A stretch of 64,000 bases of DNA from Hanleya hanleyi (Eukaryota; Mollusca; Polyplacophora; Lepidopleurida; Hanleyidae). The stretch spans positions 109,628-173,627 of the forward strand of contig JAVTVY010037038.1 in the NCBI GenBank assembly GCA_036873755.1, read 5' to 3'. The position numbers and the translations under genes are program-made. Of this stretch, positions 4,971 through 58,885 are shown piece by piece; positions within the stretch are counted from its first letter, which is position 1; the number at the start of each line of letters is the position of its first letter. The notes below the pieces were generated by a model. That model worked only from the letters and a program-made list of their open reading frames with translations. It made no database searches and was not told the origin of the DNA.

Positions 4971-5019
4971 ACCTATCCCATCAGTAAAATATATTTCCAG
5001 CCACGACTGACCCCAGACA

Positions 5020-8000
5020 CTGCACCACTACTGACAAAAGCAATGCGCCACATCTCACCAAGAATACGGCAACGTTACTGACCAAGAACACTGCACCAAT
5101 ACTGATCAAAACACTGCAACACTAATGACCAAGAACACTGCAACACTACTGAACAAGAGCACAGCAACAATACTGACCAAAACACTGCAACATTTCTGAT
5201 CAAAAACACTGCAATAATCATGACCAAGAACACTGCACCAATACTGAAAAAAAACACTGCAATACTACTGACCAAAACGCTATAATACTACTGACCAAGA
5301 ACACTGTACCACTACTGACCAAAAACAATGTAACACCAATGGCCAAGAACACTGCAACACTACTGACCAAGAGCACTGCAACACTACTGACAAAGAGCAC
5401 TGCAACACTACTGACCAAGAACACTACACCGATACTGACCAAAACACTGCAATAATACTGATCAAAACACTGCAATAATACTGATCAACACACTGCAATA
5501 CTACTGATCAACACACTGCAACACTACTGACCAAGAACACTACACCGATACTGACCAAAACACTGCAATAATACTGATCAAAACACTGCAATAATACTGA
5601 TCAACACACTGCAATACTACTGATCAACACACTGCAACACTACTGACCAAGAACACTACAACGATACTGACCAAGAACACTGCAATAATACTGATCAAAA
5701 CACTGCAATAATACTGATCAACACACTGCAATACTACTGATCAACACACTGCAACACTACTGACCAAGAACACTACAACGATACTGACCAAGAACACTGC
5801 AATAATACTGATCAAAACACTGCAATAATACTGATCAACACACTGCAATACTACTGATCAACACACTGCAACACTACTGACCAAGAACACTACACCGATA
5901 CTGACCAAAACACTGCAATAATACTGATCAAAACACTGCACCAATACTGACCAACACACTGCAATACTACTGACCAACAGCACTGCAACACTACTGACAA
6001 AGAGCACTGCAACACTACTGACCAAGAACACTACACCGATACTGACCAAAACACTGCAATAATACTGATCAAAACACTGCACCAATACTGACCAACACAC
6101 TGCAACACTACTGACCAAGAACACTACACCGATACTGACCAAAACACTGCAATAATACTGATCAAAACACTGCAATAATACTGACAACACACTGCAATAC
6201 TACTGATCAACACACTGCAACATGACCAAGAACACTACAACGATACTGACCAAGAACACTGCAATAATACTTGATCAAAACACTGCAATAATACTGATCA
6301 AACACTGCAATAATACTGACCAACACACTGCAACACTACTGACCAAGAACACTACACCGATACTGACCAAAACACTGCAATAATACTGATCAAAACACTG
6401 CAATAATACTGATCAACACACTGCAATACTACTGATCAACACACTGCAACACTACTGACCAAGAACACTACACCGATACTGACCAAGAACACTGCAATAA
6501 TACTGATCAAAACACTGCAATAATACTGATCAACACACTGCAATACTACTGATCAACACACTGCAACACTACTGATCAACACACTGCAACACTACTGACC
6601 AAGAACACTACACCGATACTGACCAAAACACTGCAATAATACTGATCAAAACACTGCAATAATACTGATCAAAACACTGCACCAATACTGACCAACACAC
6701 TGCAATACTACTGGCCAAGAACACTGCCGCTCTACTTATCAAGAACACTGAACCAATACTGACCAAAACAAGACTACTGACGGAAACATTGCAACATGTG
6801 ACCAAAACATTGCAACACTACTGCCCAAAACACTGCAACGCTACCGACCAAAACACTGCAATACTAGTGACCAAAACATTGCAACACTACTGCCCAAAAC
6901 ACTGCAACGCTACCGACCAAAACACTGCAATACTAGTGACCAAAACATTGCAACACTACTGCCCAAAACAGTGCAACGCTACCGACCAAAACACTGCAAT
7001 ACTAGTGACCAAAACATTGCAACACTACTGCCCAAAACACTGCAACGCTACCGACCAAAACACTGCAATACTAGTGACCAAAACATTGCAACACTACTGC
7101 CCAAAACACTACAACGCTACCGACCAAAACACTGCAATACTAGTGACCAAAACATTGCAACACTACTGCCCAAAACACTACAACGCTACCGACCAAAACA
7201 CTGCAATACTAGTGACCAAAACATTGCAACACTACTGCCCAAAACACTACAACGCTACCGACCAAAACACTGCAATACTAGTGACCAAAACATTGCAACA
7301 CTACTGCCCAAAACACTACAACGCTACCGACCAAAACACTGCAATACTAGTGACCAAAACATTGCAACACACTGCCAAAACACTACAACGCTACGACCAA
7401 AACACTCAATACTAGTGACCAAAACATTGCAACACTACTGCCCAAAACACTACAACGCTACCGACCAAAACACTGCAATACTAGTGACCAAAACATTGCA
7501 ACACTACTGCCCAAAACACTACAACGCTACCGACCAAAACACTGCAATACTAGTGACCAAAACATTGCAACACTACTGCCCAAAACACTACAACGCTACC
7601 GACCAAAACACTGCAATACTAGTGACCAAAACATAGTACTGACCAAAACACTGCAATGACAAAACACTGCACTGACCAAAACATTGCAACACTACTGCCC
7701 AAAACACTACAACGCTACCGACCAAAACACTGCAATACCAAAACACTGTACTGACCAAAACATGCAATACTACTGCCAAAACACTGCAACACTACTGACC
7801 AAAACACTGCAATACTAGTGACCAAAACATTGCAACACTACTGACCAAAACACTACAACGCTACCGACCAAAACACTGCAATACTAGTGACCAAAACATT
7901 GCAACACTACTGACCAAAACTCTGCCACAGTATTGACCACAACACTACAACAGTAATGCCCAAAATACTGCATCAATACTGACCAAGAACACTGCATCAA

Positions 8001-8500
8001 TACTGACCAAGAACATTACAACACTAATGACCAAGATCTCGTCACCCATACTGATCAAAACACTGCCACACTACTGCCCAAAGCACTGCAACACTGATGA
8101 CCAAAAACACTGCAACATTGCTGAACAAGGACACTGCAACACTACTGACCAAAAACACTGCAACACTAATGACCAAGAACACTGCAACATTGCTGAACAA
8201 GAACACTGCAACACTACTGACCAAAGCACTGCAACACTAATGACCAAGAAAACTGCAACATTGCTGAACAAGAACACTGCAACACTACTGACCAAAAACA
8301 CTGCAACACTAATGACCAAAATACGGCAACATAATAACCAACAGCTCTGCAACACTACTGACCAAAACACTGCAACACTAATGACCAAGAAGACTGCATC
8401 AATACTGACCAAGAACACTACAACACCAATGTACACTGCACAACTACTGATCAAGACACTGCGCAACTACTGATCAAGACACTGCGCAACTAATTACAAA
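5020..8500. repeat. 23-bp satellite array with two higher-order structures
   Basis: The array spans about 3.4 kb with a monomer close to aaaacactgcaacactactgacc (23 bp). Between about 5.4 and 6.7 kb, five monomers form a higher-order unit of 116-117 bp; the variant block ctgaccaagaacactacacc recurs at 5,411, 5,527, 5,643 and 5,760. Between about 6.8 and 7.64 kb, three monomers form a highly homogeneous 69-bp unit, seen as a 23-residue periodicity in every frame. The edges (5.02-5.4 and 7.9-8.5 kb) are more diverged. Because the monomer has few stops, long frames exist on both strands (for example 6,789-7,636 plus and 5,858-6,190 minus); these are not genes. Confidence 0.9.
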
Positions 8501-22830: not shown

Positions 22831-25800
22831 CCGTATTGATAAATTAGAATTTAATTCCTGTCTGAAGACAGAGGATATATTTTTATGTTGGAAAAATATT
22901 CTTATCTAAGAGATATTTGTACGGGAATGGGATACTCAAATTTATTCTATTAATATCGCCGCCATGGGATCAAGGCTGGTGTCAGTTTGTCACCGGTCGG
23001 GGAAAATTAACCTTCGTTATCCGACCTATGGCGTTACAGGTGACTGAATGGGTGATATAGCTTTAATGACCGGCAAATTAGTCCGATATCATGTCCAGCC
23101 TCGGGTTAAACGCTTTAAAGTTCTGTCTTTACTGAACAAAAAATAAATTAACACTAAGATCTGTCAAATGATAGTTATGATACTGTCAGTTAACCGACTG
23201 TACAGTAGGAGTATTTTTACATTGGCATACAAAATAGGCGAAGGACAGAGAAAGAATTATGTTTTGAAATCAAATAAAACATTTCACGTATGTACTAAGT
23301 GCCCTTAGATTGATCTTGATTTTATCTAAATTTTTCGGTATCAATTAATATAACAGGTAAAATGGTAAATTCTGCTTTTTCAAATCTCACCTTCCATGAA
23401 TTTGCTGTATGTCATCTCGCATATATCAAAACTTCTCAATATTTTCGCCATCGTATATCGAATGCTTAAATCTCTGGAGGAATACCCTCCATAAAGGGTA
23501 CCCTATTTCTTCTGATTATTCGGACGGCAAAACTGAAGTTCAGACATCTGCGGAGAGAAATTCTGCTAACATTCTACTATTTTCCCAGTTTTTTGGGTAA
23601 ATAACATATCAAAGCCACAGTATTTAGCCTCAGTTGACATCAAGATATTATTTTCTGCATTTAAGTATAAAATTGCTGTTCGAAAAATTAGAAGAAATAG
23701 GGTGGGTTCACAAAAGAGACGATTGTTTTTAAATCAGCAATTAACGTACCAGGCATATCATTTTAGTGTACGAGATAATTTCTACGGTTTCGTGGTAGAG
23801 CTCTCCATATTAGTGATATTTGCGAGGAATATAGCGTTTGATAGACGACCTGAGGGGAGAAACAGTTCATATTCTATTGATTCCCAATTAATCATCTTTC
23901 ACTGTCAGCTATAGCCCTTGGCTTTACATCTCTTCGATTTGGACATCTTTTATCAATATCAAATATCCCTTTGATAATTTCCATAACTGGCGTGTGTTTC
24001 ATGTACGATTCGAGTCCGAACAAGGTCTCCTCAACCATGTTAATAAGTGCGTTGCCAAACACGTTTTATGCGGCATCAGATAAAATTGGCTCGGAAGCGG
24101 TCTTATTTCATAGAATTTTATTAATTTTTCACACTCTTTTCAAGTGAGTCTCTCACTCCCCCTTCCCACCCGCTCTCCACACCCGCTCTCCCGAGGAAGT
24201 ATTCCGTGACTGAATCTGTGTATACAATTCAAGCGTCTAGTCTGTCATTCAATATGCAGCCGTCGTCCATTAAAGAATTTCCGCGTCGATATTTCAAAGA
24301 CAAAAATTCATATAACAGAATTAGCACCAAATTCAAAAATCAAACACAGTATAAACATAAACATAAGCTAGGTCCGTCAAGAGAAAGGCGATCAACAGAT
24401 CACAGTTCACTGCGCCCAATTATTGAGCAGATATGCGTATCGTGCGTATCCACGAGCTATATGTTGTTGTCATATTGCATGCACTTGAGATATTGCAATT
24501 GAAAATTTTTTGGTCTGGTTTTGATATGAGATTTAATGATGTCACGTGATGAACTAGAGATAATGAGACAGACAGACAGTGAAATCGTTTCTTTTATAAA
24601 ATACATAGCATTGCGATACGTTTGTATTCCATTTACATTGTGTTCACAAGTAATTCCATATCACTTTTGCGACCGTTGGTTATAGTTTCCGAAATATGGT
24701 TACCATAGCAACCGATCATAATCAAGCTTTTATTCCAGAGGTTGAAGTATTGTTTGAATGAATATGAAGACCTTTGCTGCTGCTTATTTAGTGATTAACA
24801 TTTCGTAATTCGCGCAATTTCCAAAATAAAGCTCTTAGTAAACAGTTGCTATGATAACCTTATTCCTAAAAGTAATTACAATTTTTCCAAGAACAAACTT
24901 AAATAGTTTGCATAATGATGTGAATGAGCTTTATTATAAGTGTGAAAGAGATTAGACTTATAGCTCTGTAAATATATCAGAATATTTTCACAAAATCTCA
25001 TTTGCATAAAATCCCTCTGGATATCAAATTCAGAGTTCAAACTCCAATATCTCGCCAACCGTTTGAGGTATCTAACTGCGGTAAACAACATCTTACTGGG
25101 AGTACTTTCTTCTCGTAAAAGTAATCCACACATGTTACCCTTTAACGGTGGTTCGGAAAATACTATAATATAAGCGTGTATGAATATACTAAGAAATGTT
25201 TGTCTCCGACTTAATATGTTCGAAGTGTCGAGCTAATAAGTTGAAATCTTGAGTTAGTTAATTAAATTCTGAATTAGCATTGATAGAAGATTATTTTAAA
25301 TGTCGCGATACTAAGTGGAATTTACGAAAAATCTCATTGTCTTCCCTTTATGTTATATCTCGAAATTTCTACTTAGCATCTCGAAATTTCGATTCAGTAT
25401 CTCGAAATACCATGACGAAATTCGACTCGATTTATCTCAAAATTGTAACTTACTTGATTTGCGTGTGAATCGAACAAAAATATCATTTAGTCATTCTTTG
25501 ATTGTGGGATTTTCATCGCCATTAAATGGTGATGGCCGGGCCTCATCGATACTAAATATAGCGCTGCAGATTTTACTTGACAAATCATAGATATTTGATT
25601 ATTCATAAAGTCGCGCCTATATAGCGTATAGGTATCCCAATGGGTATTGTGCACCACGTTTGGCTGACCTAAACCTGTTCTCGTATGAAGACACCTAAAT
25701 ATGCAGAAATTGTCAAAAGCCAGTCCCTTCTTCCAAAGGCTACATAGACCATCTCTTACATTAGCGATGCTGTGAAGTGTATGTATCCCTTTTCACTGGA

Positions 25801-26876
25801 ATTGAAGGAAACTACTGATAGTTCATATGGAACATCATGTTTGGACCTATAACTTCTCTCACGTTGACTCTACGATAAGACAGACCATCACAATTTTTAG
25901 ATAGTTAACTACCCATTTCTTGATAGCAATATTCCACTAGGACTTGCATATGGCGTATCTCGTCTAGTAGTATTTTCTAGATCCTGTGCACAATTTGACG
26001 ATTTCAATCAACGCCAGAAAATACGATCGTAGCGTGCAAGATCTCGGGCGCTACGTTTCGTAACTTGTGTATATAATTTCGCACAAGCAACGTGTGACTG
26101 AGATACATCAAACTCTAAAAAAAAAAAAAAAAACGACTGAGAAATTCATTTGGATAAAGAATAATGATCAGTGATAAGGATTGTATTTAAAGAACCTCAT
26201 GGTGTTTTGCTCTCATCCTTGAGAACTGTTGACCGCTTCTCTCTTGCAGGAAACCATATTGTGGTTGTTGATTGTTTTTAAATAATTTTTATTTCATAAA
26301 TATTTGGAATTGATGCTAACTGTCGCATGAAAATAGGTATTTCGATAATTGGCGCTGAATTTTTTTTTTGTGGACGACGGCTGAATAGTGAATTTTGGAT
26401 CTGACGCCTAAAATTAAGACATTTTGGAGGTGCGCTATGACCATACAACTTAATTTGGGCAATCTATTAACTCGAGCAGTTGGGTTATATCTGTCACCGG
26501 CAGATTAATCAATACAACGCACCACTGCCCTCGATAATTCACTGAATTTCCGAAGCGGACATTAAAACTATACAGGATCTAAATGTGTCGCTCTATGCTC
26601 CCCGGACCTGGCGTCAAATAAATTCTCAGCGCTAACCACTCTGTAATCGATACAAAAACAGATTTCACGAGAAATGCTTTTTGCTGCACGACGGGGATTC
26701 GGCGTCTATTTTTTTTTTTTTCACAAAACACTGAGAAATTATGTTTGGTATAAAACCAGTGAACGACAAATTTGCAGGGCTTATGTATTCAAGATGTGAA
26801 ATAGACAAATTGTGATAAACTCTTCAATTAAGATGACGAAGCGGAACATCCTGTCTTGCCAGATACACCATGCGCA
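22831..26876. other. Long non-coding stretch
   Basis: About 4 kb without a recognised gene, RNA or tandem array. A poly(A) run lies near 26,118-26,134. A (GACA)n patch is near 24,570. The stretches 22,960-23,120 and 26,460-26,640 are complex and non-repetitive and could be conserved non-coding sequence, but this cannot be judged from one sequence. Confidence 0.4.
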
Positions 26877-28869: not shown

Positions 28870-30135
28870 CATGGATGGGGTCAATCTCTACGAGGCCACT
28901 CAACGACCAAGAGTTTATGTTCATGGTGTACACGTTGATGGTGTCTGAATTGACTGTGGTGTCTGAAGACTGTGCACGTCTTTCGGATTCATGGCAGCTC
29001 AACTGACTGTGTGATCTGAAGACTGCGTGTCTTTTGGATTGATGGCGACTCAGCTGATTGTGGGGTCTGTAGACTGTGCACGTCTTTCGGATTGATGGTG
29101 ACTCAACTGACTGTGGGGTCTGTAGACTGTAAACGTCTTTCGGATTGATGGCGGCTCAGTTGACTGCGGAATCTGAAGACTGTGTACGTCTTTCGGATTG
29201 ATGGCAGCTAAACTGACTGTGGGGTCTGTAGACTGTACACGTCTTTCGGATTGATGGCAGCTAAACTGACTGTGGGGTCTGTAGACTGTACACGTCTTTC
29301 GGATTGATGGCAGCTAAACTGACTGTGGGGTCTGTAGACTGTGTACGTCTTTCGGATTGATGGCAGCTAAACTGACTGTGGGGTCTGTAGACTGTACACG
29401 TCTTTCGGATTGATGGCGGCTAAACTGACTGTGGGGTCTGTAGACTGTGTACGTCTTTCGGATTGATGGCAGCTAAACTGACTGTGGGGTCTGTAGACTG
29501 TGTACGTCTTTCGGATTGATGGCAGCTAAACTGACTGTGGGGTCTGTAGACTGTGTACGTCTTTCGGATTGATGGCGGCTAAACTGACTGTGGGGTCTGT
29601 AGACTGTGTACGTCTTTCGGATTGATGGCAGCTAAACTGACTGTGGGGTCTGTAGACTGTGTACGTCTTTCGGATTGATGGCAGCTAAACTGACTGTGGG
29701 GTCTGTAGACTGTGTACGTCTTTCGGATTGATGGCAGCTAAACTGACTGTGGGGTCTGTAGACTGTACACGTCTTTCGGATTGATGGCAGCTAAACTGAC
29801 TGTGGGGTCTGTAGACTGTTTACGTCTTTCGGATTGATGGCAGCTAAACTGACTGTGGGGTCTGTAGACTGTGTACGTCTTTCGGATTGATGGCGGCTAA
29901 ACTGACTGTGGGGTCTGTAGACTGTGTACGTCTTTCGGATTGATGGCAGCTAAACTGACTGTGGGGTCTGTAGACTGTGTACGTCTTTCGGATTGATGGC
30001 AGCTAAACTGACTGTGGGGTCTGTAGACTGTGTACGTCTTTCGGATTGATGGCAGCTAAACTGACTGTGGGGTCTGTAGACTGTACACGTCTTTCGGATT
30101 GATGGCGGCTCAGTTGACTGTGTGGTCTGAAGACT
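28870..30135. repeat. 53-bp minisatellite array
   Basis: About 23 copies of a 53-bp unit containing ACTGACTGTGGGGTCTGTAG, CGTCTTTCGGATTGATGGC and AGCTAA. The period is exact in the middle (CTGTGGGG at 29,641 and 29,694). Variants alternate at two places, gtgtacg/gtacacg and gcagct/gcggct. The first four units and the last one are more diverged. Confidence 0.92.
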
Positions 30136-44837: not shown

Positions 44838-45417
44838 CCTCCCCCACCAAACTTTCTGCGCTATCTCCGGAACGACAAAAAATGGAGAGCTGAAACTCCG
44901 TGACTTTATAGTTTATCATATTGAGGTCATTTTGAGCCTATTTGCATAACCCCCCGAGCAGAGCATCATGGGAAAATTCAAGATGGCGGCCACGTGGGGT
45001 ATCAGAAAAGTGATGTTTTTGTCAATGTCATATTTCTTCAAAATCAAAGCTTTTCCGCGATGAAAAGTGAGCAAAAACTATTTTATTTCACATCACATTA
45101 ATATTTACTAATTTATCATGCAGTTTTTGCAGAGAAATTGCATAAATAGAAAAATAGAAAAATCTGACCGAAAAATCGCCCAAAAATGTCGTTTGTGAAA
45201 ATGACGTCACTGTGACGTCATCCAAGCGGCCATCTTGATTTTTTTTACTTTTTCTGGTAGAGCTTGACCCAGGGGTTTAGTGTGGTAAGTTTCCGCCCCC
45301 TAGCTCAAGGGGTAAGAAAAATAATTAGGGGGATGGGACCATTTTGACTCCCCCCCCCCCCACACACACAAGGCTATGCAGGACAGGTCCCAAAAGGCCC
45401 AGGCCAGATAGGATTAA
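44838..45417. mobile_element. piggyBac-type MITE, left end lost (copy 4)
   Basis: Same orientation as copy 1: GCTATCTCCGGAACGACAAA, GTCATTTTGAGCCTATTTGC, CAAGATGGCGGCCACG, two TGACGTCA-like sites and GAGCTTGACCCA. It ends CCAGGCCAGATAGGA followed by TTAA (45,414-45,417). The left terminal TTAACCC is not visible. A C-run plus (CA)n at 45,350-45,370 lies close to the right end. Confidence 0.75.
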
Positions 45418-48504: not shown

Positions 48505-48625
48505 GTGAGTAGTATAGCCCCGTGAAAAAAGGTCGTATTGCCCTCTTTGCACTTAAACTTGAGGGGTAACTCGTGATTTCCCTAAAGAATCCGACAGGGG
48601 GCGCCACCAGCTCAAGAGAGCTCCT
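48505..48625 (+). repeat. Left terminal inverted repeat of giant element
   Basis: Inverse of 58,775-58,885. The best-conserved part is ATTGCCCTCTTTGCACTTAA through CCGACAGGGGGCGCCACCAG. Immediately inside (48,626-48,745 against 58,600-58,774) the two arms differ in sequence, which sets this ~110-bp block off as a discrete terminal repeat. Confidence 0.7.
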
Positions 48626-48744
48626 CGCAAAAGGGAGGTAACTCTTGATGCACTTTTGTGGTTTTTGCCAAATGCCGGGTTATCTTCCCTGATTCGAACA
48701 TTTGCATATTAAATCTATACGAGAAAATGCCTGTATGGGGTATG

Positions 48745-50270
48745 GATGATCCGATGGGGTCGTATGAGGTATCATTGTGAAGCTTATGTGAGGGGACATC
48801 TGATGGGCTGGGTGTGGGGTTGAAATAGCGTCATTCTGCGCATGTGCGGTGGCCAAAGGGTATGGAAATAGACGTTTTGGAGCTAGGGGAGCCACTAATG
48901 GCCCGATGGGGTCGAGTGAGGTATCAACGTGAAGCATTCGTGAAGGGGCATCTGATGGGCAGAGTGCGGGTTGAAATAGCGTCATTCTGCGCATGCGCGG
49001 TGGACCAAGGGTATGGAAATAGACGTTTTGGGGTCTAGGGCAGCCACTAATGGTCCGATGGAGTCGTATGAGGTATCAATGTGAAGCCTATGTGAGGGGG
49101 CATCCGACGGGTGGGTGTGGGGTTGGAATATCGGCATTCTGCGCATGCGCAGTAGGCCAAGGGTATGGAAATAGACATTTTGGGATCAAGGGCAGCCACT
49201 AATGGTCCGATGGAGTCGTATGAGGTATCAATGTGAAGCTTATGTGAGGGGCATCTGACTGGACTAGTGGCTCGGGCGTTGTCACCATTCTGCGCATGCG
49301 CAGACAGGGGATTGTGGGAAAAGGGTATGAAAATAGACGTTTTGGGATCTAGGGGAGCCCCTAATTGGCCGATGGCGTCGAGTGAGGTATCAATGTGAAG
49401 CACACATGAGGGGGCATCCACCTGGACTAGTGTCTCTGCCGTGTTCAACATCCTACGCATGCGCAGACAGGGAATTGTGGGAAAAGGGTATGGAAATAGA
49501 CGTTTTGGGGTTTAGGTGGGCCACTAGTCGTCCGATGGTGTCGTATGAGGTATCAATGTAAAGCAGTCGTGAAGGAGCATCCGCCTGGATTAGTATGACG
49601 TGGAACTGACGTCATTCTGCGCATGCACAGTAGACAAAATGTATGGAAATAGACTTTTTGGGGTCTAGGTGGGCCACTAATGGGCCAATGGAGTTGAGTG
49701 AGGTATCAAAGTAAAGTCTATGTGAGGGAGCATCCGCCTGGGCTAGTGTGTCGTCCGTGTTGAACATTCTGCGCATGCGCAGACAGAATTGTGGGAAAAG
49801 GGTATGGAAATAGACGTTTTGGGGTTTAGGTGGGCCACTCGTGGTCCTATGGAGTCGTATGAGGTATCGTTGTGAAGCATTCGTGAAGGAGCATCCGCCT
49901 GGACAAGTGTGTTGGTCGTGTTCAACATTTTGCGCATGCGCAGACAGGGAATTGTGGAAAAAGTGCTTTGGAAGGAACGTTTTGGGGTTTAGGTGGGCCA
50001 TTATTGGTCCGATGGAGTCAAGTGAGGTATCAATGTGAAGCACACGTGAGGGAGCATCCGACTGGGTGGATGTGGGGGTAGGAATATCGTCATTCTGCGC
50101 ATGCGCAGGCAGGCCGTAGTATGGAAATAGACATTTTGTGGCCGATATGGACCACTAGTGGTCCAAGTGGGTCGTGGGAGGGGTCAAAGTGAAGCTTGTG
50201 TGGGGTAGAGTCAGAATGGCGTGTTTTTATTGCAAGTCGCGTCAATCTGCGCATGCGCAGTTGGGTGTAG
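48745..50270. repeat. Left-arm 150-165-bp tandem repeats with NRF1-type palindromes
   Basis: About ten units. Each has a GCGCATGCGCAG-type core (near 48,838, 48,990, 49,141, 49,291, 49,454, 49,619, 49,771, 49,932, 50,098 and 50,251), then GGGTATGGAAATAGACGTTT, GGGGTCTAGG, GGGCCACTAATGGTCCGATG and GAGGTATCAATGTGAAGC. Perfect TGCGCATGCGCA occurs in at least six units and equals the consensus of nuclear respiratory factor 1. All frames here (for example 49,047-49,460 minus and 49,612-50,043 minus) are products of the repeat. Confidence 0.85.
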
Positions 50271-50394
50271 TAAGTAAAGTGGTCATTTTCAGGGTGCGTC
50301 GGGGTGTGTTTGTGGTAGAGAGGACCCATTCTTGGTCCGAATGGGTCGTGGGATGTGTCATTTGTAGCTCTCGGGGTGTAGACCCCGATTTGTG

Positions 50395-50450
50395 GGCTGT
50401 CCACGTCATCTGTGACGTCATCGGTGACGTCACAGCAGGAGTAGTAGCGA
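50395..50450. promoter_or_regulatory. CRE-like TGACGTCA cluster, left arm outer
   Basis: TGACGTCATCGGTGACGTCA at about 50,412-50,431 contains two CRE/ATF consensus sites. The mirror cluster is at about 56,755-56,780. Confidence 0.45.
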
Positions 50451-50632
50451 AAGTGGGCATTTTGGGGGAGTGAAGGAAGATGTTTAGGGTAGAGAGGGAC
50501 CATCCTTGGTCCTAATATGTCGTGTGGGGTGTCATCTTGTAGTTCTCTGCATGTAGAGGCAACTACACAGTTGGTGGTCACATCGTGCATGAATACTACA
50601 TATGACTTGATACCGTGAACTATAACTGTAAA

Positions 50633-50675
50633 GTCAGGATGGCCGAGTGGTCTAAGGCGCCAGTCCTAAGTAGGT
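50633..50675 (+). ncRNA. 5' half of a tRNA-Leu-like sequence, left arm
   Basis: GTCAGGATGGCCGAGTGGTC followed by TAAGGCGCCAG matches the acceptor 5' strand, D-arm and start of the anticodon stem of animal tRNA-Leu, including the A box TGGCCGAGTGG. The next bases read CCTAAGT, then the match ends: no anticodon 3' stem, variable arm, B box or acceptor 3' strand (TCCTGAC) is seen. It is a fragment rather than a gene. The same half is kept in the right arm (56,519-56,561). Confidence 0.65.
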
Positions 50676-50763
50676 TCTCTGACAGAACATACACGTGCAC
50701 CGCATCAATCCATATGTATTGGTCGACTGATGAGGGACACATGTTCATTCCTATATTTACAGA

Positions 50764-50821
50764 CACCACCACCAATACCACCACCGGGCGTTGACGGGCG
50801 TCAACGCCCGGTGGTGGTGGT
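50764..50821. repeat. GC-rich hairpin, left arm
   Basis: CCACCGGGCGTTGACG pairs with CGTCAACGCCCGGTGG with almost no loop, flanked by CCACCACCAATACCACC and GGTGGTGGTGG. The hairpin is present in both arms. Confidence 0.7.
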
Positions 50822-50994
50822 AGCTCCCGTGTGGCAGAGCTCTTGGATCGGATCTCTTGGAGCTCAGAGCTCGGAAATGAAGTCGTCGCATGCATGCGCG
50901 CGTACCTGTGCTGCACCCTGCACCCTGGTGTACCGCGTCGTGGGAAGTGTCATTTTGCAGTTCTCGGGGTGTAGACTCCATTAGAGGGATGTCC

Positions 50995-51160
50995 AAAGCA
51001 TCTGTGGCGTCATCGGTGACGTCATCAGTACGAGTAGTAGCGAAAGAACATGTTTTATAATTGGCTCAGTGCCAATTTTTTCCCACGATTTGCGGGATGT
51101 CCACAGCATCTGTGACGTCATTGGTGACGTCATCAGTACGAGTAGTAGCGAAAGTGGGCA
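50995..51160. promoter_or_regulatory. CRE-like TGACGTCA cluster, left arm inner
   Basis: A duplicated ~100-bp block containing GGTGACGTCATCAGTACGAG and TAGTAGCGAAAG near 51,014 and 51,122, plus TGTGACGTCATTGGTGACGT near 51,111. The right arm mirrors it at about 56,115-56,265. Confidence 0.45.
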
Positions 51161-51374
51161 TTTTGGGCAGTGAAGGAAGGTATTTGAGGTAGAGATGGAC
51201 TATCCATATCTGTCATGCATTATACCATATCTTTGCTGTATTATGAATAACAAGTTCAGCAATGTTCATACAGTTTATTATCCCCAATGTTACATCATAC
51301 CTAGGCTGGGGGAGCCGCCCTAGGTATGTTTAGTATGTTCATAACAAAACAAATTGAAATATCAAACACCATGT

Positions 51375-51380
51375 TTTATT
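51375..51380 (-). terminator. Poly(A) signal of gene B, left arm
   Basis: AATAAA on the minus strand, about 120 bp downstream of the B stop codon, in the context GCGTTAAATAATAAAACATG. It is conserved at 55,581 in the other arm. Confidence 0.5.
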
Positions 51381-51499
51381 ATTTAACGCACCGTCACATT
51401 AGGTACAAGTGTTTACTGAGCTCAAGTCAACGACCAGCATGTAGACATATAGAGTCTGTACGGCATGTTATGGTATTCATCAGTGCACGGGTGACGCGT

Positions 51500-52366
51500 T
51501 CAACCGATGGGTTGGTCGGTCAGCTTGGTCACGAAAAACGTAACATTGGTGACCCTCTTCACTATCCACTTGGTGTTGGGGCGTTGTTTTTGGGCCCATT
51601 CCAAGGGATCCACGGTGTCCAGTTTCTCCAGCATCGTCTCTAGCGACGCCCGGTTAATGATGGTAAACGGTTGGTCAAATACCCGGATGTTACTGCTCGG
51701 GTAAAAGTATCGGACTTGATCTGTCTCCTTATGCTGCAGCACATAACCAAACGCCAGATTTAATTTGAAGGACGTAGCTTGGTCATTGAAGATGGCTTCC
51801 ACGTAGCTGCGTAGACGGGCGAGGTCGGTCAGTCGGAAATTGTAGATATCTTGAATAGGGCGATGACGGTGGAAACAGTGCCGTATCATGGTCCAATGGC
51901 GCCGATAGATGTCACTCACTGTAACAGATCGCTAGAAGCATCCACTGCATCTTCCAAAAAATGTTCGATGTTGTTAGGCGTATGACTCGAAACTGTAACG
52001 CTGGGGTCCGGCTGGATATCCAGGCCCTCCTGGACTGTGGGTATAGGCGGGCTCTTCGTCATCGCATCACCAGTGGCGTTCGTCTCCCCGGATTCATCTT
52101 CACTGGGTCTGAACTTCCGCGGCTCCTCTTTAGTGCAAAGTTGTCGCCCAAACCGTAGAGACGGGGCATGAATCAAACGTTGGTGCTGTCTTAACCGACT
52201 GGGTCGTTTGAAGAGTCGACCACAATCGTTACATTGTACCGTCGCACCCTCGTGGATTGCCCTCTCATGGCGCAGTAAATTATCCTCCCGATTGAATGAC
52301 CGTGCGCAGATTATACAAGTATACCGTGCGTCGTTGTGGGTGGAGGCCTCGTGACGTCGTAAATGT
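51500..52366 (-). pseudogene. Zinc-finger gene B, left arm, broken
   Basis: Paralogue of gene A. The promoter, start codon and first part of finger 1 are missing: the sequence goes from the 3' flank of gene A (CATGCAGTAC) directly into B codons (ATTTACGACGTCACGAGG). Fingers 2 and 3 are readable, and the third-finger codon that is a stop in the right arm is CAG (Gln) here. An acidic Ser/Pro-rich linker follows (frame 51,916-52,176). Then a 13-nt gap relative to gene A shifts the frame at about 51,919, and the conserved C-terminal domain (VSDIYRRHW to TKLTDQPIG) continues in another frame to 51,500. Not expected to yield an intact protein. Confidence 0.75.
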
Positions 52367-52386
52367 ACTGCATGTTATGGTATTCA

Positions 52387-53301
52387 TCAGTGCATGGGTG
52401 ACACATTCAGCCGATGGGGGTGGTCGGTCAGCTTGGTAACGAAAAACGTGACATTGGTCACCCTCTCTATGACCCATTGTGTGTTGGGGCGTTGTTGTTG
52501 GGCCCATTCCAAGGGATCCACGGTGTCCAGTTTCTCCAGCATTGCCTCTAGCGACGCCCGGTTAATGATGGTAAACGGTTGGTCAAATACCCGGATGTTA
52601 CTGCTCGGATAAAAATATCGGGCTTGGTCTGTGCCCTTATGCTGCAGCACATAACCAAACGCCAGATTCAACTTGATTGGCGTAGTTTGGTCGTTGAAGA
52701 TGGCTTCCACGTAGCTGCGTAGGCGGGCGAGGTTGGTCAGTCGGAAATTGTAGATATCTTGAATGGGGCGATGACGGTAGAAACAGTGCCGGATCATGGG
52801 CCAATGGCGCCGATAGATGTCACTCACTGGATGGTGTTCGTGTAACAGATCGTTAGGAACATATATGGATTCGTCCACGAAGTGTACTTTGCTCTCCTCG
52901 TCGTACAAAATCTGGCCCAATGTCTTGTCGTCGGAATTTGACTGTTGAATTAGGGCGACATCATCATCAACCCTCGTGCGATGGGTGGGAGTTCCCGCTG
53001 TCTCGATACTGGTGCCTACGGACTCTTCTACCTGCAAACATGGCTGCAGAACAGGGTGTCGTGTGCGTTGATGTCGCAGCAACTGACTGGTCAGTTTGAA
53101 AAGCCGACCGCATTCTTCGCATGGACGCTTGGGTACTTCATGGCGTGCACGTGTGTGGCGCTGTAAATGATCCGGGCGCTGAAACGACAGTGTACATATC
53201 GTACAGCTATGCCGGGCGGTTCCTTCGGACTTGGTAGCCTCATGGCGGCACAAGTCGTGCAGACGAGTGAATGATTTCGAGCACGTAGTACAAGTGAACA
53301 T
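52387..53301 (-). CDS. Zinc-finger gene A: C2H2 protein with conserved C-terminal domain
   Basis: 304 residues, intronless, and the only uninterrupted copy in the element. Finger 1 has C4, C7 and H20 but lacks the second His; finger 2 is C33/C36/H49/H54; finger 3 is C61/C64/H77/H82. These C2H2 fingers suggest nucleic-acid binding. Residues 84-150 are a polar, acidic linker. Residues 153-295 form a well-conserved domain (PVSDIYRRHWPMIRHCF, HRPIQDIYNFRLTNLARLRS, LNLAFGYVLQH, ARYFYPSSNIRVFDQPFTII, LEWAQQQRPNTQW, NVTFFVTKL). I associate this type of domain, from memory and without a search, with the segment in front of B-family polymerases in Polinton/adintovirus-like elements; here the frame stops instead. 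An extra C in a C-run (about 52,416-52,420) changes the tail relative to B, which ends TDQPIG. The start is ATG with TATAAAAGG 53 bases upstream. Confidence 0.75.
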   Translation of the reverse strand: MFTCTTCSKSFTRLHDLCRHEATKSEGTARHSCTICTLSFQRPDHLQRHTRARHEVPKRPCEECGRLFKLTSQLLRHQRTRHPVLQPCLQVEESVGTSIETAGTPTHRTRVDDDVALIQQSNSDDKTLGQILYDEESKVHFVDESIYVPNDLLHEHHPVSDIYRRHWPMIRHCFYRHRPIQDIYNFRLTNLARLRSYVEAIFNDQTTPIKLNLAFGYVLQHKGTDQARYFYPSSNIRVFDQPFTIINRASLEAMLEKLDTVDPLEWAQQQRPNTQWVIERVTNVTFFVTKLTDHPHRLNVSPMH

Positions 53302-53822
53302 CTTGGTGGTTGACAGAGTGTCTGATGAAACGGCCAGGCCGCTTCCCTTTTATAGCACGCTATGCCCGTTAGATGCATTCTCAGCTGCTCTTGTCCAATC
53401 AGAAGTCGCCATTTCAGGAAGTTCTATCTTCGACCATGTTCGCTCTGAACCGTTTGTTCTAATCGTTATCGGGCAGGTCAGGATTCCGTTGAGGCAACAT
53501 ATCCTCAGATACTTGTTTGCGCATTCTGAGTATCTATCAGTGCATGGGTGAATATATGCAGGGGACTCCGGAGCTCGGAGCTCTGGAGCTCGGAGAGGCT
53601 CACACAACATCTTTGAGGCGTCCCCAACGCCCGCCTTAACGCATAGACGCACTAACGACGGTGGTGAGTGAGTGAGTGAATGAGTGTGTGAGTCTTCCGG
53701 TTCTGGTCACGTGACAGTAAACATCGAAACACCCGGATGTAAGATGAGGACCCGGATGTAAAACCACAGTACCCAGGAAAGTGACCTTTGACTCTGCGCT
53801 ACTCGGAAGTGACGTCATCGTA
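53302..53822. other. 5' flank of gene A and central spacer
   Basis: Found only in the left half; the right arm has no counterpart because A' is cut at the central hairpin. Contains the A promoter, a GAGCTCGGAGCTCTGGAGCT palindromic patch (about 53,571-53,596), (GTGA)n near 53,662-53,680, and ACCCGGATGTAA repeated twice (about 53,731 and 53,750). Confidence 0.5.
53346..53354 (-). promoter_or_regulatory. TATA box of gene A
   Basis: TATAAAAGG on the minus strand. The following GAAGCGGCCTGGCCGTTTCA and CAGACACTCTGTCAA up to the ATG are nearly identical to the region before gene B' (54,498-54,550). The spacing from the first TATA base to ATG is 53 in both. Confidence 0.65.
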
Positions 53823-53937
53823 CGCAGGCACACACACACACACATACCCGGTGCACCCACACCCTGGTTTACCTTATGCTCTACGAGCTATAGGGTACAG
53901 GGTGCACCGGGTATGTGTGTGTGTGTGTGTGCCTGCG
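53823..53937. repeat. Central hairpin of the giant element
   Basis: CGCAGGCACAC followed by (CA)n and ATACCCGGTGCACC pairs with GGTGCACCGGGTAT, (GT)n and GTGCCTGCG. The ~45-base loop contains CACCCTGGTTTACC and GGGTACAGGGTG. This is the switch point between arms: the left side leads into the A upstream region and the right side enters A' in mid-gene. Confidence 0.8.
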
Positions 53938-54400
53938 ATCTGTTACACGAACACCATCCAGTGAGTGACATCTATCGGCGCCATTGGCCCATGATCCGGC
54001 ACTGTTTCTACCGCCATCGCCCCATTCAAGATATCTACAATTTCCGACTGACTAACCTCGCCCGCCTACGCAGCTACGTGGAAGCCATCTTCAACGACCA
54101 AACTACGGCCATCAAGTTGAATCTGGCGTTTGGTTATGTGCTGCAGCATAAGGGCACAGACCAAGCCCGATATTTTTACCCGAGCAGTAACATCCGGGTA
54201 TTTGACCAACCGTTTACCATCATTAACCGGGCGTCGCTAGAGGCAATGCTGGAGAAACTGGACACCGTGGATCCCTGGAATGGGCCCAACAACAACGCCC
54301 CAACACACAATGGGTCGTAGAGAGGGTGACCAATGTCACGTTTTTCGTTACCAAGCTGACCGGCCACCCCCATCGGCTGAATGTGTCACCCATGCACTGA
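53937..54400 (+). pseudogene. Zinc-finger gene A', right arm, 5'-truncated and frameshifted
   Basis: Begins abruptly at the central hairpin with the codons for DLLHEHHPVSDIYRRHW; promoter, fingers and linker are missing. The C-terminal domain differs from gene A by about one residue in the first ~115 (Pro to Ala after NDQTT). One T is lost at about 54,275 (ATCCCTGGAA against ATCCCTTGGAA), so the frame ends early at 54,320; the remaining gene sequence continues out of frame to the original stop near 54,400. A continuous frame runs in from the hairpin (53,781), but its upstream part is repeat sequence. Confidence 0.75.
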
Positions 54401-54497
54401 TGAATACCATAACATGCAGTACATACTCTATATGTCTGGTCCTCGACTTGGGGTAGTTGAACTGAGTGTGCTAAAAATAGATCACCAGCTAGCGTAC

Positions 54498-54506
54498 TAT
54501 AAAAGG
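54498..54506 (+). promoter_or_regulatory. TATA box of gene B'
   Basis: TATAAAAGG 53 bases before the ATG at 54,551, inside a ~55-bp block shared with gene A. It implies a very short 5' leader if initiation is about 30 bases downstream. Confidence 0.6.
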
Positions 54507-54550
54507 GAAGCGGCCTGGCCGTTTCATCAGACACTCTGTCAAGCATCAAG

Positions 54551-55461
54551 ATGTTCACTTGCACAACTTGCCAGAAGCAGTTTACTCGTCTAGAACATTT
54601 ACGACGTCACGAGGCCTCCACCCACAACGACGCACGGTATACTTGTATAATCTGCGCACGGTCATTCAATCGGGAGGATAATTTACTGCGCCATGAGAGG
54701 GCAATCCACGAGGGTGCGACGGTACAATGTAACGATTGTGGTCGACTCTTCAAACGACCCAGTCGGTTAAGATAGCACCAACGTTTGATTCATGCCCCAT
54801 CTCTACGGTTTGGGCGACAACTTTCCACTAAAGAGGAGCCGCGGAAGTTCAGACCCAGTGAAGATGAACCCGGGGAGACGAACGCCACTGGTGATGCGAT
54901 GACGAAGAGCCCGCCTATACCCACAGTCCAGGAGGGCCTGGATATCCAGCCGGACCCCAGCGTTACGGTTTCGAGTCATACGCCTAACAACATCGAACAT
55001 TTTTTGGAAGATGCAGTGGATGCTCCTAGCGATCTGTTACAGTGAGTGACATCTATCGGCGCCATTGGACCATGATACAGCATTGTTTCCACCGTCATCG
55101 CCCTATTCAAGATATCTACAATTTCCGACTGACCGACCTCGCCCGTCTACGCTGCTACGTGGAAGCCATCTTCAATGACCAAGCTACGTCCTTCAAATTA
55201 AATCTGGCGTTTGGTTATGTGCTGCAGCATAAGGAGACAGATCAAGTCCGATACTTTTACCCGAGCAGTAACATCCAGGTATTTGACCAACCGTTTACCA
55301 TCATTAACCGAGTGTCGCTAGAGACGATGCTGGAGAAACTGAACACCGTGGACCCCTTGGAATGGGCCCGGTTGCAACGCCCCAACACCAAGTGGACAGT
55401 GGACAGTGTGACCAATGTTACGTTTTTCGTGACCAAGCTGACCGACCAACCCATCGGTTGA
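54551..55461 (+). pseudogene. Zinc-finger gene B', right arm, nonsense plus frameshift
   Basis: Retains promoter and ATG. Finger 1 is complete (C4/C7/H20/H25), finger 2 is C32/C35/H48/H53, and finger 3 starts at C60/C63 but is cut by TAG at codon 75 (54,773-54,775), where the left arm has CAG; H76 and H81 follow in frame. The linker (GRQLSTKEEPRKFRPSEDE and onward) stays in frame to about 55,041, where the same 13-nt gap as in left-arm B shifts the frame. The C-terminal domain runs from VSDIYRRHW to TDQPIG and stops at 55,459-55,461. The shared gap shows the lesion predates the arm duplication, whereas the nonsense change is specific to this arm. Confidence 0.75.
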
Positions 55462-55580
55462 ACGCGTCACCCGTGCACTGATGAATACCATAACATGCCG
55501 TACAGACTCTATATGTCGACATGCTGGTCGTTGACTTGAGCTCAGTAAACACTTGTACCTAATGTGACGGTGCGTTAAAT

Positions 55581-55586
55581 AATAAA
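55581..55586 (+). terminator. Poly(A) signal of gene B'
   Basis: AATAAA about 120 bp after the B' stop. Same position and context as in the left arm. Confidence 0.5.
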
Positions 55587-55737
55587 ACATGGTGTTTGAT
55601 ATTTCAATTTGTTTTACTATGAACATACTAAACATAACTAAGGCGGCTCCCCCAGCCTAGGTATGATGTAACACTGGGGATAATAAACTGTATGAACATT
55701 GCTGAACTTGTTGTTATTCATGACAACTGCTATGCGG

Positions 55738-56052
55738 TTGTATACTACAGAATATATATTGTATAATACAGGCCATATATGATACAATACAGGACAGATA
55801 TGGTATAATACAGCACAGATTTGATATAATACAGGACAGATACTGTATAATACAGCACAGAATTGGTATAATACAGAACATATATTGTATAATACAGGAG
55901 AAATATGACACAATACAGGACAGATTTGGTATAATACAGGACAGATATTGTATAACACAGGACAGATATGGTATAATACAGCACAGATTTGGTATGATGC
56001 GAGACAGATATGGTATAATACAGCAAAGATATGGTATAATGCATGACAGATA
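55738..56052. repeat. 21-bp tandem repeat specific to the right arm
   Basis: About 15 units of ACAGATATGGTATAATACAGC. In the left arm the same place (51,195-51,245) holds only about two units. As the period is divisible by three, seven-residue periodic frames are open on the minus strand (55,638-56,362); they are not genes. Confidence 0.85.
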
Positions 56053-56114
56053 TGGATAGTCCATCTCTACCCCAAATACCTTCCTTCACTGCCCCAAAAT
56101 GCCCACTTTCGCTA

Positions 56115-56265
56115 CTACTCGTACAGATGACGTCACTAATGACGGCACAGATGCTGTGAACATCCCGCAAATCGTGGGGAAAAATTGGCACTGAGCCAAT
56201 TATAAAACACGTTCTTTCGCTACTACTCGTACTGATGACGTCACCGATGACGTCACAGATGCTTT
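56115..56265. promoter_or_regulatory. CRE-like cluster, right arm inner
   Basis: Mirror of 50,995-51,160 with TGACGTCACCGATGACGTCA near 56,236-56,255 and CTTTCGCTACTACTCGTAC twice. Confidence 0.45.
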
Positions 56266-56370
56266 GGACATCCCTCAAATGGAGTCTAAACCCCGAGAAC
56301 TGCAAAACGATACTTCCCACAAGCTTTGAGCTCCAAGAGCTCCGATCCAAGAGCTCTGCCACACGGGAGC

Positions 56371-56420
56371 TACCACCACCACCGGGCGTTGACGCCCGTC
56401 AACGCCCGGTGGTGGTATTG
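56371..56420. repeat. GC-rich hairpin, right arm
   Basis: CCACCGGGCGTTGACG pairs with CGTCAACGCCCGGTGG, as in the left arm at 50,764-50,821. Confidence 0.7.
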
Positions 56421-56518
56421 GTGGTGGTGTCTGTAAATATAGGAATGAACATGTGTCCCTCATCAGTCGACCAATACATATTGGATTGATGAGATGCACG
56501 TGTACGTTCTGTCAGAGA

Positions 56519-56561
56519 ACCTACTTAGGACTGGCGCCTTAGACCACTCGGCCATCCTGAC
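56519..56561 (-). ncRNA. 5' half of a tRNA-Leu-like sequence, right arm
   Basis: Minus-strand copy of GTCAGGATGGCCGAGTGGTC and TAAGGCGCCAG, unchanged in the A box. As in the left arm, no 3' half follows. Confidence 0.65.
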
Positions 56562-56904
56562 TTCACAGTTATAGTTCACAGTATCAAGTCATATGTAGTA
56601 TTCATGCACGATGCGACCACCAAGTGTGTAGTTGCGTCTACATGCAGAGAACTACAAGATGACACCCCACACGACATATTAGGACCAAGGATGGTTCCTC
56701 TCTACCCTAAACATCTTCCTTCACTCCCCCAAAATGCCCACTTTCGCTACTACTCCTACTGATGACGTCACAGATGACATGGACAGCCCACAAATCAGGG
56801 TCTACTCCCCGAGAGCTACAAAATGACACATCCCACGACCCATTCGGACCAAGAATTGGTCCTCTCTACCCCAAACACACCCCGACGCACCCTGAAAATG
56901 ACCA

Positions 56905-58600
56905 CTTTACTTACTACACCCAACTGCGCATGCGCAGATTGACGCGACTTGCAATAAAAAACACGCCATTCTGACTCTACCCCACACAAGCTTCACCTTG
57001 ACACCTCCCACGACCCACTTGGACCACTAGTGGTCCATATCGGCCACAAAATGTCTATTTCCATAATACGGCCTACCTGCGAATGCGCAGAATGACGATA
57101 TTCCTACCCCCACATCCACCCAGTCGGATGCTCCCTCACGTGTGATTCACATTGATACCTCACTTGACTACATCGGACCAATAGTGGCCCACCTAAACCC
57201 CAAAACGTCTATTTCCATTCCGTTTTGCCACAATTCCCTGTCTGCGCATGCGCAGAATGTTGAACATGAACAACACACTTGTCCAGGCGGATGCTCCTTC
57301 ACGAATGCTTCACAACGATACCTCATACGACTCCATAGGACCACGAGTGGCCCACCTAAACCCCAAAACGTCTATTTCCATACCCTTTTCCCACAATTCT
57401 CTGTCTGCGCATGCGCAGAATGTTCAACACGGACGACACACTAGTCCAGGCGGATGCTCCCTCACATAGGCTTTACATTGATACCTCACTCAACTCCATT
57501 GGCCCAGTAGTGGCCCACCTAGACCCCAAAACATCTATTTCCATACACTTTGTCTACTGCGCATGCGCAGAATGACGACAGTTCCACGTCATACTAGTCC
57601 AGGAGGATGCTCCTTCACGACTGCTTTACATTGATACCTCATACGACTCCATCGGACGACTAGTGGCCCACCTCAACCCAAAAACGTCTATTTCCATACC
57701 CTTTTCCCACAATTCCCTGTCTGCGCATGCGCAGAATGTTGAACACGGCAGAGACACTAGTCCAGGTGAATGCCCCCTCACATAGGCTTCACATTGATAC
57801 CTCACTCGACTCCATAGGACCACGAGTGGCCCACCTAGACCCGAAAACGTCTATTTCCATACCCTTTTCCCACAATTCCCTGTCTGCACATGCGCAGAAT
57901 GTTGAACACGGCAGAGACACTAGTCCAGGTGGATGCCCCCTCACATATATTTCACATTGATACCTCACTCGACTCCATAGGACCACGAGTGGCCCACCTA
58001 GACCCGAAAACGTCTATTTCCATGCCCTTTTCCCACAATTCCCTGTCTGTGCATGCGCAGAATGTTGACAACGGCCGAGACACTAGCCCAGGCGGATGCC
58101 CCTTCACAAGAGCTTCACATTTATACCTCATACGACTCCATCGGCCCATTAGGGGCTCCCCTCGATCTTAAAACGTCTATTTCCATACCCTTGGTCTACT
58201 GCGCATGCGCAGAATGACGTCAGTCACGTGACACCCACCCCGTCGGATGCCCCTTCACGAATGCTTCACATGGATATCTCATACGACTCCATAGGACGAA
58301 TAGTGGTCCATCAGACCCCAAAACGTCTATTTCCATACCCTTGGTCTACCGCGCATGCGCAGAATGACGCTATTCCAACACCACACCCACACCATCGGAT
58401 GCCCCCTCACATAGGCTTCACATTGATACCTCACTCAACTCCATCGGACCATTAGGGGCTGCCCTAGACCCCAAAACGTCTATTTCCATACCCTTGGTCC
58501 ACCGCGCATCGGCAGAATGACGCTATTTCAACCCCACACCCAGCCCATCAGATGCCCCTTTACGAATGCTTCACTTTGATACCTCACTCGACCCAATTGG
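56905..58600. repeat. Right-arm 150-165-bp tandem repeats with NRF1-type palindromes
   Basis: About eleven units, the inverse of the left-arm array, with CTGCGCATGCGCAG cores near 56,925, 57,244, 57,408, 57,560, 57,722 and 58,202 and degenerate cores at 57,080, 57,887, 58,055, 58,352 and 58,503. Open frames in it (57,142-58,455) are repeat products. Confidence 0.85.
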
Positions 58601-58774
58601 ACCATGCAGCGTATTTGAAGTCTGGGGACTACTTTTTCTCCGCGGAGGCTTTCTCCCGTGACCGCATCACCGCCAGACATGACCGCATCACCGCGGAGGA
58701 ATACAAGGTCAAAGGTTGCCGGACCTATAGTGGTCAAAACTTGGCACACAGGCAATGCTGATGCAATCCATAAC

Positions 58775-58885
58775 CTTGAGCTGGTGGCGCCCCCTGTCGG
58801 ATGGTTCAGGGAAATCACGAGTTACCCCTCAAGTTTAAGTGCAAAGAGGGCAATGGAACCTGTTTTGCATGCTCTATACTACTCA
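58775..58885 (-). repeat. Right terminal inverted repeat of giant element
   Basis: Inverse of 48,505-48,625: CTGGTGGCGCCCCCTGTCGG, AAATCACGAGTTACCCCTCA, AGTGCAAAGAGGGCAAT and CTATACTACTCAC. Confidence 0.7.

Follow-up and report, generated by a model that had tools for sequence, protein, structure and literature searches.

The locus examined here raises the question of what kind of unit is represented by a palindrome of about 10.4 kb that carries zinc-finger genes in both halves and lies in a 64,000-nucleotide stretch of the genome of the mollusc Hanleya hanleyi (assembly GCA_036873755.1, contig JAVTVY010037038.1, positions 109,628 to 173,627), referred to as the window throughout. An earlier note, made from the sequence alone, had placed the palindrome at 48505..58885 and proposed it as an undescribed mobile or amplified unit, unlike the known large virus-like transposons. 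The window unit is read here, with a probability of roughly three in four, as one member of a palindromic, non-autonomous family of elements with Polinton/Maverick ends. The claimed dissimilarity did not hold: the ends, the duplications seen in sister copies and the genes that co-terminal elements carry are of the Polinton/Maverick type, and for this reason the palindromes are probably non-autonomous relatives of Polintons and not an unknown kind of transposon.

The palindrome itself is real, and the coordinates given for it earlier were right to 3 bp. Both element ends start with AGTAGTATAG when read inward (48508 and 58883). The inverted repeat reached 90.3% identity in the outer arms (48746-50871 against 58452-56322, 2149 columns), 95.8% (50940-51244 against 56320-56015) and 97.2% (51246-52369 against 55715-54592) in the middle, and 98.4% close to the 3' part of gene A (52363-52852 against 54424-53936). 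Most of the modules said to be mirrored were indeed found on both arms. The mirror is incomplete, with a 21-bp satellite on the right only, a left B without a start, a right A reduced to a 3' fragment and a broken right B.

A search of the same genome (2.48 Gb) with 1 kb of the left end, in which the best 40 of 11,359 candidates were scored, yielded 78 match rows spread over 34 contigs, several of them as inverted pairs. Besides the window, 12 loci were taken, which are denoted here by C and a number, and 11 were analysed, while C41871 was left out (it ends 2.4 kb in). Related ends occurred in all 11 loci. The 27-nt end motif had 482 exact copies in the genome and its reversed control none; among 100 places listed, 22 adjacent pairs faced each other at distances of 2.8-13.9 kb, while two were oriented ++ and one --. 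Both ends could be placed in nine copies of 3.6 to 15.4 kb, the window included, and seven of these nine had perfect 6-bp target duplications (C14024, C14697, C17117, C6605, C33348, C15187, and C3690). The duplication of C45570 matched at 5 of 6 bp and that of the window copy at 1 of 6. Five of the seven were found by a script and two (C33348 and C6605) were read from the alignment, which shows the duplication where the script had stopped one ACT short and given 2/6 and 1/6. C23102, in which the terminal motif was not placed, as well as C23257 and C43632, with one end found, were left out of the duplication set. The unit was rightly taken as old, palindromic, mobile and multicopy: related ends occur in 11 other loci, sister copies are flanked by target duplications, and the single-copy locus without shared ends that had been named as the contrary outcome was not what the genome contained. 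Beside the family end in C23257 lie open reading frames (ORFs) of 298, 287, 1053, and 357 aa, which we take to belong to a retrovirus-like gypsy element, possibly with an envelope gene.

The layout of the family was most complete in C33348, an element of 13.8 kb flanked by AACACG on each side. Its first arm runs from the terminal domain through a 163-bp array, the tRNA-like half and hairpin, a block of CRE sites, and the 21-bp satellite to genes B and A, and beyond the centre the same modules follow mirrored (A, B, satellite, CRE, hairpin, array, terminal domain). The left A of C33348 is interrupted by a 2.2-kb stretch, whose ORFs presumably derive from an element like a long interspersed nuclear element. 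C15187 (15.4 kb) has a similar layout and contains a reverse-transcriptase gene that matches RVT_1 below the cut-off (E 1.4e-4); a fragment related to this gene (E 7e-8) also lies at 25648-25837 of the window. Short family members of 3.6-5.8 kb had no ORF of 130 aa. On contigs with two listed copies of gene A, all 16 of 16 pairs were divergent, 283-3945 bp apart, and because of this the palindrome looks like the normal form of the family. When trees were built from three segments of the arms, an element's own arms grouped together in 3/3 cases for C33348, 2/3 for C15187, and 1/3 for the window (support 0.74-0.95), which may hint at formation per element or at homogenization.

According to the accessible text of PMC8097293, vertebrate Mavericks mostly have (AGT)2//(ACT)2 ends and 6-bp target duplications. 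The Polinton/Maverick end motif, (AGT)2//(ACT)2 or (AG)3//(CT)3, was present in all nine copies whose two ends could be placed, the window among them, and the 6-bp duplication was found in the family and not in the window copy. The window element gave no match to an integrase, adenain-like protease, packaging ATPase or capsid gene, and tblastn with the PolB of C4967 found no full match in it, with zinc fingers alone aligning. The window unit lacks the coding content of a Polinton and has the end motif of one. It shares its ends with integrase-bearing elements of the same genome, as non-autonomous derivatives do.

Two such co-terminal elements were C14024 (9.9 kb), with ends 93.6-95.5% identical to those of the window over 236-246 bp, and C3690 (11.6 kb), with 96.9% over 162 bp and a differing outermost part, in each case at both ends. 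Both encode an integrase core (rve) and a chromodomain above the Pfam cut-offs, an adenovirus-protease-like gene just under the cut-off (E 4e-4 and 3e-4, respectively), and an A32-like ATPase under the cut-off (E 1.5e-4 and 0.013). Their capsid-like genes, which we take to be MCP and penton, had no Pfam match, and MCP had no PDB sequence match. The earlier note had suggested looking for relatives with replication or integration genes, and relatives with integrase and capsid-like genes do exist; the PolB search matched neither C14024 nor C3690, an absence that rests on these two elements. Of 7993 scored proteins, 3184 were related to MCP at E 0.001, the best match reaching 60% identity. Animals have relatives at 50-60%, and the named relatives are from Littorina, Pecten, Liolophura, Apostichopus, and Patiria, several of them labelled 'F54H12.2-like'. 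PF21738, presumably a capsid-type domain, was found on 1 of 120 listed relatives. With at least 97 MCP copies in the genome at 95-100% identity, 94 of them without a stop, the MCP-bearing elements are a young, very large Polinton-type family. A literature search for palindromic or divided Polintons showed no description among the papers listed.

The left A is the sole full-length open gene of the window element, and both B copies are 13 bp shorter than the open B copy of C33348. At least 130 full-length copies of gene A were scored in the genome (the window's included), 116 of the 130 without a stop; a 30-mer of the gene had only 17 exact copies, compared with these at least 130 copies at 90-100% protein identity. 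Between A and B (two sequences of each) the ratio of nonsynonymous to synonymous substitution rates (dN/dS) was 0.36-0.39 over the full length and 0.20-0.26 in the C-terminal domain, which shows purifying selection. The synonymous rate of that domain (about 0.23) lies far below that of the saturated fingers, and the domain has therefore probably been exchanged between A and B. C15187 sits inside an older relative of the zinc-finger gene (59-61% protein identity), so that the gene family predates the copies studied. Searches of 5.8 billion proteins, covering those of 0.55-1.75 times the query length, gave only two proteins for gene A (E 1.4 and 5.5, among 593 candidates) and none at E 10 for its C-terminal domain (among 35 candidates). 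The best PHROGs match of gene A had E 0.36, and an IMG/VR scan with the C-terminal domain gave nine pattern matches and no relative. A and B were also considered as truncated N-termini of PolB. This was not supported, as the layout of fingers plus domain is alike but the domain has no detectable homology to the PolB N-terminal domain (hhalign probability 0.2% on very shallow alignments, with only the zinc fingers aligning at 98%).

Repeated motifs were concentrated in the element. Fourteen of the 15 sites of YGCGCAYGCGCR in the window (30 strand matches, against 0.04 matches per window in shuffles) and 12 of the 18 sites of TGACGTCA (1.2 per window in shuffles) lie inside it; NRF1 and CRE are the factor names we assume for them. 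Two more doubled TGACGTCA sites, 11 bp apart, occur outside the element at 615-633 and 45202-45220. Of the tRNA-Leu half described earlier, the 31-nt stretch stands, while the name was called by neither ARAGORN nor Rfam. The central hairpin had a folding energy of -53.9 kcal/mol as DNA (z -11.3 over 200 shuffles). Its sequence was present in C33348, C15187, C14697, and C6605 and weakly in C23102; two of these five loci are short palindromes that have no long ORF. In C33348 and C15187 the hairpin sequence falls inside a stretch matching its own reverse complement.

On this basis, PolB supplied by other elements would copy the palindromes by protein-primed replication, and the integrase of co-terminal Polintons would insert them in trans, as the ends and target duplications suggest. 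During replication a displaced strand probably folded back at the hairpin and was copied through to its end, so that a palindrome formed from one arm present twice; symmetry and the hairpin point to such a step. A and B, given their fingers and the selection on them, are putative DNA-binding proteins that might target repeats or promoters within the element itself.

Several points weigh against reading the unit as a non-autonomous palindromic Polinton relative. The fold-back copying is a hypothetical step, the function of A and B is putative, and the structure model of gene A is too poor for a fold search (predicted local distance difference test score 47). Among the matches listed, at least 79 PolB contigs and 34 end contigs had an overlap of 0, which bears on the source of the polymerase, and within the contig range covered by the motif listing the exact end motif was found on only 2 of the 24 contigs with gene A and on none of the 19 with MCP. 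Given this rarity, most gene-A and capsid-gene copies probably bear other or variant ends. Recent copies had few changes and higher dN/dS values, with 0.82 between A copies (5 synonymous and 14 nonsynonymous changes) and 0.72 between B copies, which is consistent with decay after insertion; the fingers of A gave 1.58 between A copies. Finally, the window copy has unequal flanks and no target duplication, and is therefore not a clean single insertion.

The end subtypes of the window copy differ (left ...TAGCCCC, right ...TAGAGCA), and its inner right end (58537-58732) matches the capsid-gene element C2425 at 85% over 203 bp. In the B region the left arm differs by 1.1-1.4% from arms of two other elements and by 3.6% from its own right arm, while the two A segments pair with each other (1.5%). 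The outer right arm is of a different lineage. The window copy is a recombinant or an assembly switch, joining two arms of different origin through recombination within the palindrome or a switch at the axis. A partner of the left end was sought by its target duplication, with four exact sites (control 2); C12668 had a related end (87.6% over 178 bp) of the wrong subtype, the remaining sites had no related end, and the candidates were rejected. For the right end there were 14 candidate partner sites (control 1).

Other palindromes in the genome carry the polymerase. C4967, C41214, and C28015 are palindromes of about 17-23 kb with AGTAGTATAG ends and divergent PolB copies on both arms, some of them broken. 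Their PolB, which in the one C4967 copy tested matched PF03175 at E 1e-38, has three C2H2 fingers at its N-terminus; the three palindromes gave no match to capsid or integrase genes. PolB was listed on both strands of four contigs, always in the order - then +. With these palindromes, whose ends are unrelated to those of the window family, the palindromic architecture is seen more than once. They could be taken to mean that a Polinton genome is divided, with capsid and integrase, PolB, and zinc-finger genes on separate elements that have compatible ends, complement each other and keep the replication module palindromic, which we regard as unlikely. The integrase and capsid-like genes of C14024 and C3690, both with target duplications, occur without a PolB match, the at least 97 MCP contigs and at least 79 PolB contigs do not overlap among the matches listed, and AGTAGTA ends are found in all element types. 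Against this, C2308 has PolB, protease, MCP, pX, and penton matches within 20 kb, which led to the rejection of general segmentation as a rule, C4967 shows no blastn similarity (E 1e-5) to window-family loci, and the three PolB palindromes have no clean target duplication. The fully specified version, in which an integrase/capsid element, a palindromic polymerase element and the palindromic zinc-finger element of the window would share the work, with mirrored genes and the hairpin as a fold-back replication origin, is improbable.

An origin of the palindromes as assembly artefacts, produced by fold-back reads, is very improbable. It would agree with the unequal flanks of the window copy, with C41214-left and C28015-right, whose common flank CATGTC and 99.8% identical arm indicate that an axis switch or exchange occurred, and with C13703, where element ends at 46.1-46.7 kb and 52.6-53.2 kb bear the same host flank mirrored, either as a fold-back artefact or as a true inverted duplication. 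However, such an artefact should mirror the flanks as well, and in C33348 and C15187 the host flanks differ between the two sides, perfect 6-bp duplications border the palindrome at either end and the aligned arm blocks are about 2-6% apart; the consistently divergent gene-A pairs also speak against it. It is likewise quite unlikely that A and B are zinc-finger genes captured from the host that play no role in the element. C2H2 fingers are common among host proteins, and the dN/dS of the recent pairs (0.72-0.82, few changes) would allow it, but the low values between A and B (0.2-0.39), the older relative in the DNA that C15187 inserted into, and the number of largely stop-free gene-A copies do not fit.

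Compared with known systems, the window family resembles Polintons/Mavericks in having (AGT)n//(ACT)n ends, 6-bp duplications around sister copies, and co-terminal relatives that carry an integrase as well as ATPase-like, protease-like, and capsid-like genes. It differs in that PolB, integrase and capsid genes are missing from the window element and each arm of the complete form carries two zinc-finger genes. Non-autonomous derivatives of DNA transposons, whether like miniature inverted-repeat transposable elements or larger, have common ends and are moved in trans; the window family shares the ends and presumably the movement, but is large and encodes proteins under purifying selection. In foldback elements the inverted repeat makes up most of the length, as it does here, whereas the window family has Polinton ends, 6-bp duplications and coding arms. 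Protein-primed viruses such as adenovirus form symmetric defective genomes with two copies of one end head to head, an arrangement that in the window family is instead fixed as integrated, multicopy elements; a literature search turned up no paper on such defective genomes. Polintons have been described as self-synthesizing, one-element units. A large end-sharing family of giant coding palindromes without enzymes would show that they have parasites or partners, palindromic genomes would then be a stable, heritable form, and replication by folding back at a hairpin becomes testable from genome sequence. The arms of about 5 kb compare with 46-1447 bp in vertebrate Mavericks in the accessible text of PMC8097293, and Teratorn, as far as the accessible text of PMC6431247 describes it, differs as a piggyBac/herpesvirus element of 41-182 kb.

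Table. Features of the palindromic element, in window coordinates; the AATAAA and TATAAAA signals and the tRNA-Leu name were read from the sequence only.
Feature	Position	Strand	Remarks
Whole palindromic element	48508..58883		10,376 bp; AGTAGTATAG at either end; flanks CCGGTG / CACACA, without target duplication
Left terminal domain	48508..48746	+	about 240 bp; the 11 other loci analysed match it at 92-100% over 39-251 bp
Left tandem array	48746..50138	+	152/163-bp units bearing TGCGCATGCGCA sites
CRE-like TGACGTCA cluster, left	50413..51132	+	
tRNA-Leu-like 5' half, left	50633..50663	+	31 nt
GC-rich 42-nt hairpins	left 50777..50818, right 56375..56416		95% identical to each other
AATAAA 3' of left B	51375..51380	-	
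Gene B, left copy, broken	51500..52369	-	without start
Gene A, intact ORF	52387..53301	-	304 aa; three C2H2 fingers and C-terminal domain of about 150 aa
TATAAAA of gene A	53348..53354	-	
Central hairpin	53823..53937		related sequence also at five of the 11 other loci
Gene A, right copy, 3' fragment	53936..54436	+	
Promoter block like that of gene A, before right B	54498-54504		95% over 61-62 bp
Gene B, right copy, broken	54551..55461	+	in-frame stop and frameshift
AATAAA 3' of right B	55581..55586	+	
21-bp satellite	55740..56055	+	right arm only in the window; both arms in C33348 and C15187
CRE-like TGACGTCA cluster, right	56128..56770	-	
tRNA-Leu-like 5' half, right	56531..56561	-	31 nt, identical to the left one
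Right tandem array	57120..58605	-	152/163-bp units bearing TGCGCATGCGCA sites
Right terminal domain	58605..58883	-	outer 112 bp 88% identical to left end

Elsewhere in the window, long tandem arrays with 23-bp and 53-bp units were found at 5001-8426 and 28951-30135.

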